Shown here in pieces: positions 37,691-59,020 of a stretch of DNA of 64,000 nucleotides (the stretch's first letter is position 1; every line of letters starts with the position of its first letter). The position numbers were made by a program, and so were the translations under genes. The stretch lies in contig NC_015556.1 of NCBI RefSeq assembly GCF_000213805.1, forward strand, positions 4,789,001-4,853,000. The letters are read 5' to 3'. This stretch comes from Pseudomonas fulva 12-X. GTDB lineage: Bacteria; Pseudomonadota; Gammaproteobacteria; Pseudomonadales; Pseudomonadaceae. Under the pieces are notes generated by a model. The model was not told the origin of the DNA. It did not search any database and saw only the letters and a list, made by a program, of their open reading frames with translations.

Positions 37691-38030
37691 GCACAACAAA
37701 AATAACAAGACACATCTGATAACAAGAACAAGACAACGGCTCTAGCATAAGAAAGACAAAAACGCAGAGACGCAGCTAACTGATTTCTTTGGAGAGGACC
37801 GCCCTCGGGCTTGTACCGCAACCGGGTCGAGAACAATAAAACTGCTTTGCAAGGCAGCGACAGACGGGTTGGATCTACGGATCACGGCAACATCAGCGTC
37901 CAAACAAATCCGTTCGCTCTTGGCCTCGCTTGGAGGCCTTGGCTAAAACAAGAACAACAGGCCAGTAGTACTAATAAGAACGACGATACGAACAAGACTT
38001 GGGGGAGCTTCGGCTCCCCCTTCTGCTTTC
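37691..38030 (+). ncRNA. CrcZ-family small RNA that sequesters Hfq/Crc
   Basis: About 340 nt starting near GCACAACAAAAATAACAAG, 11-12 bases after the -12 GC of the sigma-54 promoter, and ending in a terminator with stem GGGGGAGC/GCTCCCCC and a UUCG loop (38001-38020). It contains repeated A-rich CA motifs (AACAAGAACAAGACAA, GAACAATAAAAC, AAAACAAGAACAACAGG, ACGAACAAGAC), the sites by which CrcZ, CrcY and CrcX bind Hfq with Crc to relieve catabolite repression. In P. aeruginosa crcZ follows cbrB; here the flanks are hydroxyproline genes, so this may be a CrcY- or CrcX-like paralogue. The 85-codon open frame inside has no ribosome site. Confidence 0.8.
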
Positions 38031-38031
38031 T
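38001..38031 (+). terminator. Terminator of the CrcZ-like RNA
   Basis: GGGGGAGC, TTCG tetraloop, GCTCCCCC, then TTCTGCTTTCT. The stem is a perfect 8 bp capped by a very stable UUCG loop. Confidence 0.85.
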
Positions 38032-38083
38032 GGCGTTTATGCCGACTTCTCCCAGCCCTTGCTGCTGATTGCCGCCAGACGCG

Positions 38084-46984: not shown

Positions 46985-47740
46985 CTAGCGGTAGCTGTCT
47001 TCCGTGAGAGGTATGGCCTCAATGTGGCAGTAATCCGCACCCAGCTCACCCGCCAGTTGCACGGCACGCCCCAGACGGATCGGCGCGCACTCGATATCCA
47101 CCAGGGTGGCCGGGCATGGGCTGGGCGCCAGCGCCGGCCATTCGCGCAAACGCCCATCCGTGACCACCAGCAGGCGTCGCGCCTCGCTCGGCTTGAGGCG
47201 TTGCCGGCGCTGCAGCCAGTCGTGGGCCTGCTGCAGCGCCGGGATCAGCGGGCTGCCACCGCCTGCGCCGAGGTCGCTCAACCAGCCTTGTAGAGCGCCA
47301 GAGGCTTTCTGGCCCTGCCAGTGCCATTGCGGCTGCGCGCCGTGGGCGTCGAGCACGGCGATGCGGGCACGCTCCCGGTAGGCCCGCTCGAACAGCTCGG
47401 CGAGCAGGCCCTTGGCCTTGCTCAGGGCGCCGTGGCGACGGGTGGAGGCCGAAGCATCGACGACGATCAGCCAAAGCTGTGTAGGTGCATTGCTGCGCGG
47501 TCGACGTTGCAGGTCGGCACGACGCCTGGGCTTGCCTTGCAGCAAGGTGGCGAGCCAGTCGATGGCGCCGCTGTCGCCGCGCCGCTTGGCTCCGCTGCGC
47601 CCGCCTGCCTGTTTGCCTGGTGTCGGTCTGGCATCCGTCCCCGCCTTGGCGCGCGGGGGAATGCCTAGGGCTTTTTTGCCCAGCGCGGCGGCTCGCGGCG
47701 CTCGCCGGTATTTTGCGTTTGCGCGGGCAGCTCGCCCCAC
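46985..47740 (-). CDS. VWA-domain protein, chelatase D-type subunit
   Basis: A 251-residue protein. A basic, low-complexity N-terminus (about 1-85) is followed by a von Willebrand A domain with an intact metal-dependent adhesion site: DASAS (95-99), GGGSPL and TDGR. It matches the C-terminal half of magnesium/cobalt chelatase D subunits, without their N-terminal AAA part. With the ChlI-like ATPase it probably energises CobN in cobalt insertion. The start is GTG at 47740 with GAAGGG upstream; it lies 76 bases inside the end of the ATPase gene in another frame, an unusually long overlap. Confidence 0.8.
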
Positions 47741-48672
47741 TGCCCTTCGCCTGCAGCGGGTTGTTCGCTCGGCGCCTGGGGCGGCGGGCTGGCTGGCGGT
47801 TGCGCCTGTTGCTGCGGCGGCGTGTGGCGACGACGGTGGCGCAGCACGAAGTCGGCCACGGCCTCGATATCTTCCTCGCCGATGGCGTCGGCGCCGCGCC
47901 AGGCGGCATGGGCGCGGGCGGCGCGCAGCCAGACCAGATCGGCACGCAGGCCATCGACGCCAGCGGCGAAGCAGCGCTCGGTGATCGCGTCGAGCGCCCG
48001 GTCATCGAGGGCGATGCTCGCCACGCGCGCGCGCGCCTGCCCGCAGCGCGCGGCCAGGGCCTGCTGCTGCTCGGCCCACCTGGCAACGAACGCCTGGGGG
48101 TCGGCATCGAAGGCCAGGCGACGGCGGACGATCTCGGCGCGCGCTCCCGGCTGCGGCTGGCCATCCAGGGCCAGGTTGAGGCCGAAGCGGTCGAGCAGTT
48201 GCGGGCGCAGCTCGCCTTCTTCGGCGTTCATGGTGCCGATCAGGACGAAGCGCGCAGCGTGGCGGTGGGAAATGCCGTCGCGCTCGACGTGGTTGACGCC
48301 GCTGGCCGCCGCATCGAGCAGCAGGTCGACCAGATGATCGGGCAGCAGGTTGACCTCATCGACGTACAGCACGCCGCCATGAGCCTTGCTCAGCAGGCCC
48401 GGCGAGAACTGCGCGCGGCTTTCGCCCAGGGCCGCGTCCAGGTCGAGGGTACCGACGATGCGCTCTTCGCTGGCGCCTAGCGGCAGGGTGACGAACACGC
48501 CGCTTTCCAGCAGCGCGGCCAGGCCGCGGGCCAGGGTCGACTTGGCCATGCCCCGCGGGCCTTCGATCAGCACGCCGCCGATCGCCGGATCGACCGCCAC
48601 CAGGCACAGCGCCAATTTCAGGGAGTCGGCGCCGACCACGGCGGCGAGGGGGAAATGGACGGTGTCGGTCAT
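47665..48672 (-). CDS. ChlI-like AAA+ ATPase, chelatase I subunit
   Basis: A 335-residue AAA+ ATPase of the magnesium-chelatase I class. Walker A is GPRGMAKST (38-46), Walker B is LYVDEVNLL near 107, and the [20 protein letters not shown] region is typical of BchI/ChlI. The C-terminus is a Pro/Gln-rich tail. In pseudomonads such ChlI/ChlD pairs stand in for CobS/CobT as partners of CobN. The ATG at 48672 is chosen because the conserved domain begins there; an upstream in-frame ATG at 48768 would overlap the divergent LOG promoter. Confidence 0.85.
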
Positions 48673-48785
48673 GGGGCGATCCGGGCTGGGCAAAGGCGGC
48701 ATTGTAGCAGCGGGCGGTCGAATCGCTCGCAGCTGATCTGCTAAGGTCGGCGGCTTCGTTTGCGCCATCCACTAGGGAGAACTCG

Positions 48786-49364
48786 ATGCGCCTGTGCATT
48801 TTCTGTGGCTCCAACGCGGGCTCAAATCCCGTTTACCTCGAGGCCGCCACGCGCCTCGGCAAAACCCTCGCCGAGGCCGGCATCGGCCTGGTGTACGGCG
48901 GCGCTTCCGTCGGCCTGATGGGCGCCGTGGCCAACGCCGCGCTCGAAGCCGGTGGCGAAGTGATCGGGGTGATCCCGCGTTCGCTGTGGGAGAAGGAAGT
49001 CGCCCACACCGGCCTCGACGACCTGCGCATCGTCGACTCCATGCACCAGCGCAAGGCGCTGATGGCCGAACTGTCGGATGGCTTCATCGCCCTGCCCGGC
49101 GGTGTCGGCACCCTGGAAGAGCTCTTCGAGGTATGGACCTGGGCGCAACTGGGCCATCACCAGAAGCCCTGCTCGCTGCTCAATATCAACGGTTACTACG
49201 ACCGCCTCGCGGCATTCCTCGATCACATGGTCGACGAAGCCTTCGTCAAGGCGCCGCACCGCGAGATGCTGATCGTCGAGCAGGATATCGACGCGCTGCT
49301 GGCGGCGATCGATGGCTATGAGGCGCCGCAGGTGGGTAAATGGATCGGTCGCAAGGAGACCTGA
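48786..49364 (+). CDS. LOG-family nucleotide phosphoribohydrolase (TIGR00730)
   Basis: A 192-residue Rossmann-fold enzyme with [14 protein letters not shown] at the N-terminus, the [13 protein letters not shown] loop and the signature [12 protein letters not shown] (102-113). LOG proteins cleave the N-glycosidic bond of cytokinin nucleotides or AMP-like nucleotides. The bacterial role is often purine salvage or housekeeping. It is divergent from the chelatase genes and coupled to a Nudix hydrolase gene through a TGATG overlap. Confidence 0.88.
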
Positions 49365-49792
49365 TGAGCGCGCAACCACGACTGGGCTGCGGCGCCGCCA
49401 TCGTGCAGGACGGCCGTCTGCTGCTGGTACGCCGCCTGCGTGAGCCGGAAGCCGGCTGTTGGGGGCTGCCCGGCGGCAAGGTGGACTGGCTGGAGCCGGT
49501 CGAGCAGGCGGTGCGCCGCGAAATCGAGGAAGAGCTGGCCATCCGCCTGACGTCGCTGAGCCTGCTCTGCGTGGTCGATCAGATCGACGCGCAGCGCGGC
49601 GAACACTGGTTGGCACCGGTCTACCTGGCCGATACCTTCGACGGTGAAGTGCGCAACGTCGAGCCCGAGAAACACAGTGACATCGGCTGGTTCGACCTCG
49701 ATGGCCTGCCAGAGCCGCTGACCGTGGCGACGCGCAAGGCAGCGTGCGCGCTCAACGAACGGCGCTTGCAATCGACCACCGCGATGAATTAA
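49364..49792 (+). CDS. Nudix hydrolase
   Basis: A 142-residue pyrophosphohydrolase. The Nudix box runs from the GLPGGKVDWLE strand through the helix REIEEEL (52-58), so the catalytic Glu residues are intact; the usual Gly after the EE pair is Ala. It resembles the CTP-pyrophosphohydrolase/MutT-like group. The substrate is unknown. The ATG shares bases with the LOG gene stop (TGATG) and has AAGGAG upstream, so the two nucleotide-processing enzymes are made together. Confidence 0.85.
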   Translation: MSAQPRLGCGAAIVQDGRLLLVRRLREPEAGCWGLPGGKVDWLEPVEQAVRREIEEELAIRLTSLSLLCVVDQIDAQRGEHWLAPVYLADTFDGEVRNVEPEKHSDIGWFDLDGLPEPLTVATRKAACALNERRLQSTTAMN

Positions 49793-49819
49793 CGTCGAGC
49801 CCATTCAACGGAGCCGCAC

Positions 49820-49951
49820 ATGTCCACATCCCCGATCCTGAACGCTACCCGCCTCGATGCAGCCTGCATCGTGATCGCGCGTGCCCAGGCATCCGTGGTC
49901 GCCGCCGCCTCGTATTTTTATGGGTATTGGTTTAGCCACAGGCGCGCCTGA
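49820..49951 (+). CDS. Leader peptide 1 upstream of the DAHP synthase (aromatic codons)
   Basis: A 43-codon ORF with a ribosome site (CGGAG) 7 bases before ATG. Its product is MSTSPILNATRL... and near the end comes a cluster of aromatic residues, YFYGYWF (49913-49933), then SHRRA and stop. A strong terminator begins 50 bases after the stop. GGGTAT within the aromatic codons (49922-49927) can pair with ATACCC just past the stop (49951-49956). This is the layout of a ribosome-mediated attenuator that senses Tyr, Phe or Trp supply. The peptide itself probably has no other function. Confidence 0.7.
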   Translation: MSTSPILNATRLDAACIVIARAQASVVAAASYFYGYWFSHRRA

Positions 49952-50001
49952 TACCCCACAGGCGCCCTAGCAACTCAGGGTCGCCACCAGACAGTTTCTC
50001 G

Positions 50002-50041
50002 AAACCCCCGGTCGGCCTCCCGACCGGGGGTTTTGTTTTTT
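50002..50041 (+). terminator. Attenuator terminator in the aroF leader
   Basis: A perfect 14-bp stem AAACCCCCGGTCGG (50002-50015) with its complement at 50020-50033, a CCTC loop, and a T-rich tail (TGTTTTTT). It sits between two aromatic-rich leader ORFs and 180 bases upstream of the DAHP synthase start. It can only be meant to stop or regulate readthrough into that gene. Confidence 0.85.
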
Positions 50042-50074
50042 CCGGCACATCGATCGTTCACAGAGGATTTCACC

Positions 50075-50179
50075 ATGACTGCATACGCCACCTACCAGAC
50101 CTATTACCGCTACAGCTGGCGATTTACCGGCGCTCAAGCCGCTCAACCACTCAATCGAACATCCCATCGAGCCCGATAG
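50075..50179 (+). CDS. Leader peptide 2 upstream of the DAHP synthase (Tyr-rich)
   Basis: A 34-codon ORF with AGAGGA before the ATG. The first half is dense in Tyr codons: MTAYATYQTYYRYSWRF contains five Tyr, one Trp and one Phe within 17 residues. It then runs on with ordinary residues to a TAG 43 bases before the DAHP synthase ATG. Ribosome stalling at the Tyr codons could change folding of the GC-rich segment just past the ORF (GCGCCGCGCGCGG and CCGCGCC), possibly exposing the synthase ribosome site. No T run follows here, so control of translation is more likely than termination. Confidence 0.65.
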   Translation: MTAYATYQTYYRYSWRFTGAQAAQPLNRTSHRAR

Positions 50180-50222
50180 TGCGCCGCGCGCGGTAACGTC
50201 CGCGCCGGCCGAGGAAATCACC

Positions 50223-51311
50223 ATGTCCGTAGCCGTCAATTCCCGCTCCACCGCCAAAGCCGCCGACTTGCACCTGGTCGCCGCCCCGAGCCGTCGCCAC
50301 ACCACGCCTCTGCCTTCCGCCGCCCAATTGCGCGAAGAGCTGCCACTCTCGACCGCCCTCGCCCGCCAGGTGCAGCAGCAACGCCAGTCGATCCGCGCCA
50401 TTCTCGATGGCCATGACCCGCGCCTGCTGGTGGTGGTCGGCCCCTGCTCCCTGCACGACGATGCCGCCGTACTCGAGTACGCCGAGCGCCTGACCGCACT
50501 GAGCCAGCGCGTGGGCGATCGCCTGCTGCTGGTGATGCGCGCCTACGTCGAGAAGCCGCGCACCACGGTGGGCTGGAAGGGCCTGGTCTACGATCCGGCA
50601 CTGGATGGCAGTGGCGACATGGCCGAAGGCCTGCGCCGTTCGCGCAAATTGATGCTCAGGTTGCTGGAGCTGGGCCTGCCATTGGCCAGCGAGATCCTCC
50701 AGCCGCTGGTGGCCGGCTACTTCGACGACCTGCTCGGCTGGGCGGCCATCGGCGCACGCACCAGCGAGTCCCAGGTGCATCGCGAGCTGGTAAGCGGCCT
50801 GGAGATGCCGGTGGGCTTCAAGAACGGCACCGACGGCAGCCTCGGCATCGCCTGCGATGCCATGCGCTCGGCGGCCCACGCGCACCAGCACTTCGGCGTC
50901 GATACGCAGGGTCGCCCGGCCCTGGTGCAAACCCACGGCAACCCGGACACCCACCTGGTGCTGCGCGGCGGCCATGGCGCGCCGAACTACGACGCCGCCA
51001 GCGTCGCCACCGCGCGGGCCGAGCTGGAGCGCCAGGGCATCGCGCCACGGATCATGGTCGACTGCAGCCACGCCAACAGCGGCAAGAACCCGCTGCGCCA
51101 GCCCGAGGTACTCAGCGACGTGCTCGACCAGCGCCTGGCCGGCGATGGCTCGCTGCGCGCGGTGATGATCGAGAGCCACCTGCTCGACGGCGCCCAGAGC
51201 CTGGGCGGCGAACTGCGCTACGGCGTGTCGATCACCGACGGTTGTCTGGGCTGGGCCGGCACCGAACGCATGCTGATCGACGCCGCCATCCGCATGCGCC
51301 ACCTGGTCTGA
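50223..51311 (+). CDS. aroF: 3-deoxy-7-phosphoheptulonate (DAHP) synthase
   Basis: First enzyme of the shikimate pathway, joining phosphoenolpyruvate and erythrose 4-phosphate. The 362-residue protein is a type I alpha DAHP synthase with VVGPCSLHD (70-78), the active-site segment RAYVEKPRTTVGWKG, VGFKNGTDG, LRGG and the metal ligand region VDCSHANSGK. The N-terminal 45 residues are those that carry feedback regulation in this class. The two aromatic-rich leader ORFs and the terminator upstream point to end-product attenuation. It lies within the cobalamin region, as does a DAHP synthase gene near cobN in P. aeruginosa. The isozyme letter is by convention only. Confidence 0.88.
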   Translation: MSVAVNSRSTAKAADLHLVAAPSRRHTTPLPSAAQLREELPLSTALARQVQQQRQSIRAILDGHDPRLLVVVGPCSLHDDAAVLEYAERLTALSQRVGDRLLLVMRAYVEKPRTTVGWKGLVYDPALDGSGDMAEGLRRSRKLMLRLLELGLPLASEILQPLVAGYFDDLLGWAAIGARTSESQVHRELVSGLEMPVGFKNGTDGSLGIACDAMRSAAHAHQHFGVDTQGRPALVQTHGNPDTHLVLRGGHGAPNYDAASVATARAELERQGIAPRIMVDCSHANSGKNPLRQPEVLSDVLDQRLAGDGSLRAVMIESHLLDGAQSLGGELRYGVSITDGCLGWAGTERMLIDAAIRMRHLV

Positions 51312-58371: not shown

Positions 58372-58487
58372 GGTGGCCCCTGGCGTCTGCAGAAACGGCG
58401 AGCGGGCGATAGGATGGCAGGCACGAGCAGGGCTCACGCGAAGGCATCACCGGATCACCCCGCCCGGTTGTCGAAAGCGTTATCGAG

Positions 58488-58662
58488 GCAGGTCTCCTGG
58501 CTGGCAGGTCATGGCGCGCGGCCGGCCTTCCCGGTCTCCCAGTGGCGATTGGCGACGCACTCGCTGCTTACAGTTGCGGGGGCAGCCACGGTTTGCCGTG
58601 TTCCCTCTTAGCTCCATGGCAACCATGGAGAACCTCGAAGACCGCAAGGCTACGCAGCCCCC
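58488..58662 (-). promoter_or_regulatory. Cobalamin riboswitch controlling cobW-cobN
   Basis: Read on the minus strand this region shows the B12-riboswitch landmarks in order: GGGAACACGGCAAACCGTG, CTGCCCCCGCAACTGTAAGC, GCCACTGGGAGACCGGGAAGG and, at the 3' side, GCCAGGAGACCTGCC. The last element ends about 116 bases before the cobW ATG. Binding of adenosylcobalamin should switch off expression of cobW, cobN and the small gene behind them. Confidence 0.9.
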
Positions 58663-58737
58663 GCGATACGGTCAATCGCGGCGCGACCTGCAACATGTTG
58701 ACGCACTTGCCGCTTCGTGGTGTTCTTGGCCCGTTGT

Positions 58738-58915
58738 TTCAGGTGTCTCACGCCGCGGTGCGTGAGGTGAAACGGGAAGCCGGTTCGAGTCCGGCGCTGC
58801 CCCCGCAACGGTAAGCGAATGCCAGGATCGTTTTGGCCACTGTGCGCACGCATGGGAAGGCCGATCCCCATCGCCGCAAGGTGATCATCGCGAGCCCGGA
58901 GACCGGCCTGGATCC
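58738..58915 (+). promoter_or_regulatory. Cobalamin riboswitch controlling cbtBA-cobE-cobM
   Basis: On the plus strand: a 5' stem CTCACGCCGCGGTGCGTGAG, GGGAAGCCGGT, CTGCCCCCGCAACGGTAAGC, the B12-box-like GCCACTGTGC...ATGGGAAGGC, and the 3' GCCCGGAGACCGGCC. It ends about 105 bases before cbtB. It faces away from the minus-strand riboswitch about 75 bases to its left, so one short region controls both halves of the cobalamin cluster. Confidence 0.9.
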
Positions 58916-59020
58916 TCTGTTTGGCAACCCGCGGTGGGCGGGCACGCGCCGATCGCTGCCTGCCTGTGCGGGCTGTCTCGCCGTGTCCTGCTGTGCCGTT
59001 TACCCCTGAGGTCTACGATC

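Follow-up and report, generated by a model that had tools for sequence, protein, structure and literature searches.

On the forward strand of the window (the whole stretch of 64,000 nucleotides of Pseudomonas fulva 12-X DNA analysed here), a Nudix-type gene that ends at position 49792 is followed by a small open reading frame rich in aromatic codons (ORF1, 49820–49951), an intrinsic terminator (50002–50041), a second small aromatic reading frame (ORF2, 50075–50179) and a gene for DAHP synthase (3-deoxy-7-phosphoheptulonate synthase, DAHPS; 50223–51311). The synthase, 362 residues long with its ATG at 50223, is assigned to class aroFGH by its NCBIfam profiles (TIGR00034, aroFGH, 427.7 bits; NF009395, 502.3 bits), and its likely Shine-Dalgarno (SD) sequence is GAGGAA at 50211–50216. 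Tyr- and Trp-inhibited DAHP synthases are known in upper-gamma proteobacteria (PMC1173090). The same genome encodes a second DAHP synthase (G000:C1:2748494-2749468), which is 52% identical to a halomonad query. Within 49364–49820, the stop codon of the Nudix-type gene and ORF1 are just 27 nt apart, and the leader promoter should therefore lie inside the Nudix-type gene, unless the leader is co-transcribed with that gene; a scan of 49600–50300 with the sigma-70 consensus gave no promoter match. Elsewhere in the window we noted the sRNA CrcZ (RF01675, 231.8 bits; 37693–38049, plus strand) and two back-to-back cobalamin riboswitches, 71 nt apart (58470–58652 on the minus and 58724–58925 on the plus strand). 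About 10 kb from these riboswitches lies a chelatase/MoxR-like ORF (47665–48768, minus strand), which by eye we take to be an AAA+ ATPase of the chelatase/MoxR kind and which adjoins a VWA-like ORF.

ORF1 starts with ATG, has GGAG 6 nt upstream and encodes 43 residues (MSTSPILNATRLDAACIVIARAQASVVAAASYFYGYWFSHRRA). A preliminary description of this DNA had the peptide ending in YFYGYWF; the aromatic run, SYFYGYWF (...SYFYGYWFSHRRA), is indeed there, but it lies five residues from the C-terminus, as SHRRA follows. Two hairpins are recognised from the P15 alignment introduced below and from folding, the first (49922–49956) with the Gly-Tyr-Trp codons in its 5' arm (GGGUAUUGG) and the ORF1 stop codon in its 3' arm, and the second at 49961–49985. 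The terminator stem AAACCCCCGGTCGG/CCGACCGGGGGTTT is perfect over 14 bp (50002–50015 with 50020–50033), reaches 16 bp by fold and pattern scan, and runs into a T-rich tail, which bears out the 14-bp stem previously described 50 nt past the ORF1 TGA. The 141 nt from 49905 to 50045 fold with an energy 4.7 s.d. below that of dinucleotide shuffles. In an alignment of 143 unique leaders, whose rows were selected for GGGTATTGGTTT (the 5' arm of the first hairpin) plus a terminator-like end, the 9-bp first hairpin GGGUAUUGG:CUGAUACCC is paired in 99% of cells, as is the 12-bp core of the terminator, which has two covarying pairs. An alternative pairing between the first two hairpins, GGCGC:GCGCC, is found in 97% of cells and has two covarying pairs, but the pairing of a candidate antiterminator to the terminator arm is weak and inconsistent in position among leaders. 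ORF1 has several of the features by which a peptide-leader attenuator is recognised, namely end-product codons, a ribosome site, a first hairpin whose 5' arm carries the control codons, and an intrinsic terminator downstream.

The Rfam family RF00627 ('Pseudomonas sRNA P15') matches positions 49909–50030 over its full model (1–119) with 105.7 bits against a gathering threshold of 70, taking in the ORF1 aromatic codons, both hairpins and the terminator. The original P15 paper is said to be that of Livny, 2006. Judged by this match, the aromatic codons of ORF1 together with the terminator are one and the same as the orphan RNA P15, which is most likely the terminated product of an aromatic attenuator. 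SIPHT work had proposed P15 as a riboswitch (PMC2527527), and in a 2017 study of P. fluorescens hfq, where the P15 level was raised without Hfq, its function was called 'currently unknown' (PMC5627042). P15 was found in 269 of 298 genomes of the genus (268 over the cut-off), and a DAHPS gene was present in all 110 examined loci located by P15 position, from 117 such loci fetched. Twenty of the 29 genomes without P15 were listed; 18 of these have a single, weaker DAHPS match (E values of 1e-105 to 1e-109) and thus seem to be without this paralogue, while G206 carries the paralogue with no P15 match and G123 has weak pieces only. Extra P15 copies in six genomes were dismissed as sub-threshold matches (29.4–33 bits) on the opposite strand, over the terminator end of the first match. 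The ORF1 codons GGG TAT TGG TTT AGC are present in 194 of the 218 loci that bear ORF1. In six of six halomonad loci tested, most of them with ORF1, the P15 model scored below threshold, and stage 1 there therefore rests on the aromatic ORF1 and not on P15. Since ORF1 and its terminator are identical to P15, we regard the first layer as a conserved aromatic transcription attenuator; the earlier proposal that termination is sensed by the Tyr, Trp and Phe codons of ORF1 thus appears strongly supported by conservation and by the identity with P15.

ORF2 encodes 34 residues (MTAYATYQTYYRYSWRFTGAQAAQPLNRTSHRAR, beginning MTAYATYQTYYRYSWRF...) and has AGAGGA 7 nt upstream of its ATG. Its codons 1–17 hold five Tyr, one Trp and one Phe, exactly as first reported, and at least seven aromatics within the first 18 codons occur only in ORF2 among the 1937 start codons of ORFs of 15–70 residues on both strands of the window. 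Across loci, the part of ORF2 from its start through Trp-Arg-Phe (WRF; median 17 codons) is 36.5% aromatic, with a median of six aromatics per ORF2 (range 4–8), or 30.1% (918 of 3049) if WRF, the search anchor that itself supplies two aromatics, is left out, whereas only 21 of 6168 residues beyond WRF are aromatic (0.34%). This segregation makes the decisive point whether a ribosome stands before or beyond WRF. The positions of the Tyr codons shift among loci while their number is constant, and WRF (within TGG CGA TTT ACC in the window, 50117–50128) is encoded TGG CGA TTT in 214 of 215 cases, against a background in the DAHPS genes of 4.3% CGA among Arg codons and 5.8% TTT among Phe codons; at the lone exception, L059, the true ORF2 has CGC TTT and the script scored a chance match further downstream. 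The suggestion that this second layer is sensed by Tyr codons was too narrow, as the aromatic stretch closes with Trp-Arg-Phe. A second unusual CGA near the end of ORF2 (CGAACA, Arg-Thr; 50156–50161) is widely kept, CGA accounts for 223 of 263 Arg codons within the last six codons of ORF2, and no pairing partner common to all clades was found for CGAACA. ORF2-like proteins gave 86 matches in public sets, the named ones being only hypothetical or uncharacterised, and no NCBIfam family matched the ORF1 or the ORF2 peptide.

How widely are the two leaders conserved? ORF1 was found in 218 and ORF2 in 215 of 220 DAHPS loci (L001–L140 and L148–L227, representing Pseudomonas in the broad sense and 18 named halomonad-side loci, not de-duplicated), and the five loci without ORF2 comprise four of Salinicola, which have ORF1, and one on a contig that starts inside the gene. 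With its sensing-codon leader ORF directly before the gene in these 215 of 220 loci, ORF2 fits the layout of a translational attenuator. It should be noted that loci from different sources were not de-duplicated unless called unique, that the genome sets overlap, and that the 80 stretches located by P15 lean towards Pseudomonas bearing the pseudoknot described below because they were drawn from the best-scoring listed P15 places. The Halomonas query L097 led to family f36, which contains Halomonas (best matches 77–87% identical), with the paralogue at E ≤ 1e-115 in 93 of 111 genomes. Among the 90 f36 loci read, 69 have ORF2 (57 of these with ORF1 recognised too), 16 have ORF1 alone and five have neither leader. 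In family f43, with the paralogue in 37 of 46 genomes and 32 loci from 30 genomes read, ORF2 is present in four loci, ORF1 alone in 27 and neither in one, and all five f20 loci have ORF1 alone. A one-leader form thus exists beside the two-leader form. No ORF2 was seen in 12 loci of other families, whose synthases are about 50–53% identical.

Based on these data, the presence of two small ORFs with ribosome sites before DAHPS is confirmed from the sequence and is conserved beyond the genus, and the second aromatic leader past the terminator can be taken as a strongly supported conserved element. The arrangement thereby withstands one refuting condition named in the preliminary description, the lack of both ORFs or of their aromatic codons in relatives. 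The two leaders may be a tandem duplicate. In some halomonads (L097–L110 and L228–L314) ORF2 reads YGYWRFS and ORF1 YGYWFS, with TATTGG(CGA)TTTAGC as the DNA. Downstream of the DAHPS gene of P. mandelii we also noted a TwoAYGGAY RNA (RF01731, 56.6 bits; L061:4223–4342).

Many relatives have, after WRF and inside ORF2, an H-type pseudoknot with an 8-bp stem 1 of the type CCGGUCGG:CCGACCGG and a 6-bp stem 2 in which GCC[AG]CC, within the loop of stem 1, pairs with GGUGGC downstream. Of the 293 loci in which an ORF2 was called, 225 show the knot pattern (139 unique sequences), and so do 61 of the 69 ORF2-bearing f36 loci. The 68 pattern misses come mainly from the clade of the window, from diverged forms and from chance matches to ORF2, but they include at least one true case (L109, where the knot is visible by eye). 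The spacing between WRF and the start of the stem-2 strand is constant throughout the 139 unique sequences and loop 1 has 8 nt in 137 of them, which places the start of stem 1 at 8 nt past TTT. Loop 3 has 9 nt and the single nucleotide between the stems is U, each in 135 of 139. Pairing of the knot was compared with shuffles that re-deal the 3' letters, with no correction for relatedness, on 36 rows chosen from 137 standard-length unique knots by at least seven differences: 95.6% of cells are paired (91.2 ± 0.6 shuffled), 19 cells are changed on both sides (5.7 shuffled) and the covariation score is 0.188 (0.115 shuffled), each reached by none of 500 shuffles, and five pairs have a two-sided change (2.9 shuffled; 16 of 500). 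When the 3' partners were slid, 20–54% of cells paired; the slide of +3, one codon, gave 20 two-sided changed cells against 19 for the knot, but with 54% pairing and a score of 0.085.

The encoded peptide does not explain the knot, since observed pairing lies far over that expected when synonymous codons are resampled by usage. Stem 1 has 7.84 of 8 pairs in 58 halomonad-side sequences (4.67 ± 0.18 resampled) and 6.95 in 81 Pseudomonas sequences (4.50 ± 0.16), where a mismatch is often found at the fourth pair, and stem 2 has 5.91 and 5.99 of 6 pairs, respectively (4.38 and 5.17 resampled). A pairing rivalling stem 2, UGGCG:YGCC[AG], was set aside; it is paired in 96.7% of cells but has zero two-sided changes. 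No Rfam family matched the knot region in seven loci. The knot model R1, which is sequence-heavy, describes nested stem 1 only and was run with strict filters above 40 genomes, found one place per genome in 28 of 57 relatives (28 of 36 in the genus, 0 of 21 others). By eye, 24 of these places adjoin a listed DAHPS or P15 place, and for the other four no such place is among the listed matches. R1 also gave no place in 229 class genomes, but as that set included no known positive, the result shows little.

The knot is absent from the genome of the window, as judged with R1, and from its clade, here 43 aligned loci of P. citronellolis-, Stutzerimonas- and Halopseudomonas-like organisms. This clade keeps the aromatic codons, TGGCGATTTA and mostly CGAACA(C) near the end of ORF2. 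A hairpin precedes the SD (50183–50209), its 5' arm beginning 3 nt past the ORF2 stop codon, and its helices covary in the 43 sequences, with CGCGG:CCGCG paired in 97% and GCCG:CGGC in 95%. The same hairpin is found in 146 knot-bearing, mostly Pseudomonas leaders (92% paired, one covarying pair). A further helix of the clade, CUGGCG:CGCCGG, is paired in 98% of the 43 sequences, but without covariation, and RNAalifold on the two groups added little.

We propose that a two-stage ribosome-sensing leader controls the DAHPS gene, a reading that we rate at about an even chance. Comparison among relatives supports its parts as far as sequence can, that is, both ORFs, their codon bias, the terminator, the pseudoknot of the relatives and the hairpin; from these we infer the stalling, the direction of the effect and the action of the second stage on translation. 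In stage 1, when charged tRNA-Tyr, -Trp and -Phe are plentiful, the ribosome would clear ORF1, transcription would terminate and the P15 RNA would be released, while a stall on the aromatic codons of ORF1 would let RNA polymerase read through the terminator. In stage 2, a second ribosome would translate ORF2 on the read-through mRNA, where the aromatic codons end in UGG CGA UUU. With UUU in the P site, we take the leading edge of the ribosome to lie at about the first base of knot stem 1. A stall at UGG CGA UUU would leave the remainder of ORF2 and the region before DAHPS ribosome-free and folded, into the pseudoknot in many relatives and into the pre-SD hairpin in the window and in other Pseudomonas. 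DAHPS would then initiate freely. With no stall, ORF2 ribosomes would traverse this fold, reach or pass the start region of DAHPS and so keep initiation low. As DAHPS relieves aromatic shortage, stalling should raise DAHPS synthesis.

In a more specific form, which we put forward tentatively, the leader would be a hybrid attenuator that senses one amino-acid family twice per mRNA, first through the P15 terminator attenuator and then through end-product codons frame-locked 8 nt upstream of an H-type pseudoknot. A stalled ribosome would abut the intact knot and a moving one would unwind it, and the knot, or the pre-SD hairpin in the clade of the window, would set DAHPS translation.

Ribosome-position-dependent sequestration of the SD, as one way in which stage 2 could act, was not borne out, as four tests, made with nested folds and single helices on rows with a recognisable start and SD, gave no signal over controls. 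In nested folds with ribosome masks (ViennaRNA, 188 unique loci pooled) the unpaired fraction of the SD was 0.42 on the free leader, 0.40 with a stalled ribosome and 0.37 with one at the stop codon. Blocking the knot raised this value from 0.32 to 0.40 in 55 halomonad-side rows (p = 0.0004), with 0.39 for a shifted control block, and lowered it slightly, from 0.33 to 0.29, in the first 60 of the 81 unique Pseudomonas rows, and knot and control blocks did not differ in SD accessibility (p = 0.76 and 0.42). A helix between GGUGGC and the vicinity of the SD was below the null in the 55 halomonad-side rows and no better in 80 Pseudomonas rows, and pairing of the control codons with the SD was not over the null in three groups (80, 43 and 55 rows). 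Thus, of the claim that the second layer acts on translation of the synthase, the positions of ORF2 fit, but the sequestration models lend it no signal over controls. The routes still to be considered are that ORF2 ribosomes occlude the DAHPS start region, that they reinitiate, with an effect of opposite sign, or that the output lies in transcription or decay.

Reinitiation underlies the strongest of the alternatives, in which ORF2 is a translational coupler whose finishing ribosomes reinitiate at DAHPS or open the pre-SD hairpin. ORF2 translation would then raise DAHPS and either DAHPS synthesis would track charged tRNA or the aromatic codons and the knot would be a speed bump. The spacing suits such a coupler: in nine of 16 loci (14 halomonad-side and two Pseudomonas) the end of ORF2 either shares 1 nt with the DAHPS start or lies at most 10 nt upstream of it, with the SD inside ORF2, the distance from ORF2 to the likeliest DAHPS start being 25–50 nt in the other seven. 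Moreover, in Pseudomonas the 5' arm of the pre-SD hairpin begins a few nt past the stop codon, where a ribosome terminating on ORF2 would cover it. Reinitiation was also proposed by Korolev in 2016, with a peak of leader-gene distances at 10–11 bp in Actinobacteria and a pronounced peak in Proteobacteria too (PMC4833913). However, under coupling, starvation would reduce an enzyme that relieves starvation, and the segregation of aromatic codons within ORF2 is left without explanation. We consider a coupler possible but rather unlikely.

A role of the ORF2 segment and its knot mainly in transcription or mRNA decay, with the position of the ribosome setting the exposure of the RNA to Rho, polymerase pausing or RNase E, is in our view unlikely. 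The modelled SD accessibility is unresponsive, which allows outputs other than initiation, and the conserved GAUUU presumably fits the RNase E consensus. Nevertheless, a pattern scan of 49600–50300 found no terminator-like site between ORF2 and DAHPS, and under Rho, starvation would lower expression.

It is very unlikely that stage 1 alone is regulatory and that ORF2 is a relic or duplicate of ORF1 whose codons were kept for another reason. The ORF1-only loci of f36, f43 and f20 and the YGYW(R)FS common to ORF1 and the halomonad ORF2 agree with such an origin, but the near-invariant CGA TTT, the aromatic segregation and the constant distance from WRF to the knot point to strong purifying selection on ORF2. 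Programmed frameshifting, in which slippery UUUAGC and the pseudoknot would fuse ORF2 to DAHPS or truncate ORF2, is highly improbable: we take the spacing and shape of the knot to resemble frameshift signals, and a stop within two codons of the -1 frame in 112 of 139 sequences makes a truncating shift conceivable, but the canonical slippery heptamer is absent, and a fusion is contradicted by the DAHPS frame relative to ORF2, which varies (73, 38 and 28 of 139), and by the shifted frame, which runs on without a stop as far as DAHPS in only 34 of 139.

If the hybrid attenuator is the true reading, it would represent a novel class of RNA switch gated by the ribosome and common to Pseudomonas and Halomonas relatives. 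The arrangement gives the orphan RNA P15 a likely function and places the entry enzyme of pseudomonad aromatic synthesis under two successive leaders rich in aromatic codons. The knot-in-leader design ties codon identity, rare codons and RNA tertiary structure together at a fixed spacing, and is thus well suited to studying, in a clean system, how a stalled ribosome signals via RNA structure. Control of DAHP synthase is, moreover, central to the engineering of aromatics in P. putida and halomonads.

How does this leader compare with known systems? P15 as listed in Rfam is the same RNA as the ORF1 codons, hairpins and terminator of the window; Rfam holds it as an sRNA gene, whereas here it would be the terminated leader of an aromatic attenuator, and the P15 model stops at the terminator, with ORF2 and the knot outside. 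Classical trp, phe and his peptide-leader attenuators resemble ORF1 in that the first hairpin carries control codons in its 5' arm and a terminator stands before the biosynthetic gene, whereas a second aromatic leader past the terminator is a feature of this locus. For Vibrio, predicted attenuators upstream of a DAHP synthase-tyrA operon are given in Table 7 of PMC1173090. The LEU element of actinobacterial leuA shares with ORF2 a leader ORF of end-product codons with a conserved pseudoknot before a biosynthetic gene, a likeness that holds for relatives (225 of 293 ORF2 loci) and not for the genome of the window, from which the knot is absent. In the LEU element the Leu codons base-pair with the Shine-Dalgarno box of leuA, a pairing whose analogue here was not over the null. 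The present leader also differs in that the knot, where it occurs, is embedded in the ORF at a set distance in codons and is preceded by a terminator attenuator; the leuA paper itself doubts classical attenuation (PMC1262725).

Two leader ORFs before one gene are also known. The mgtM and mgtP leaders of Salmonella mgtCBR are likewise two short ORFs, each with its own sensing codons; their output is transcription and their signals are ATP and proline (PMC3641672), whereas here both ORFs are aromatic-rich with one intrinsic terminator between them, and the pattern scan found no terminator-like site between ORF2 and DAHPS. The ermB gene has two leader peptides, ermBL and ermBL2, and uses translational attenuation, but through erythromycin-induced arrest and not end-product codons, and its abstract mentions no terminator stage (PMC8274638). 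In the open-licence literature we found no case of two leaders for the same amino acids flanking one terminator and none of a knot at a fixed codon distance inside a second leader; in its full texts we found nothing on a leader peptide of the Pseudomonas DAHP synthase, on P15 as an attenuator or on a pseudoknot in ORF2. Overall, two-ORF leaders and a pseudoknot with a leader peptide are known and an attenuator before a DAHP synthase operon has been predicted, and their combination, as seen here and in relatives, is, as far as we have searched, new.
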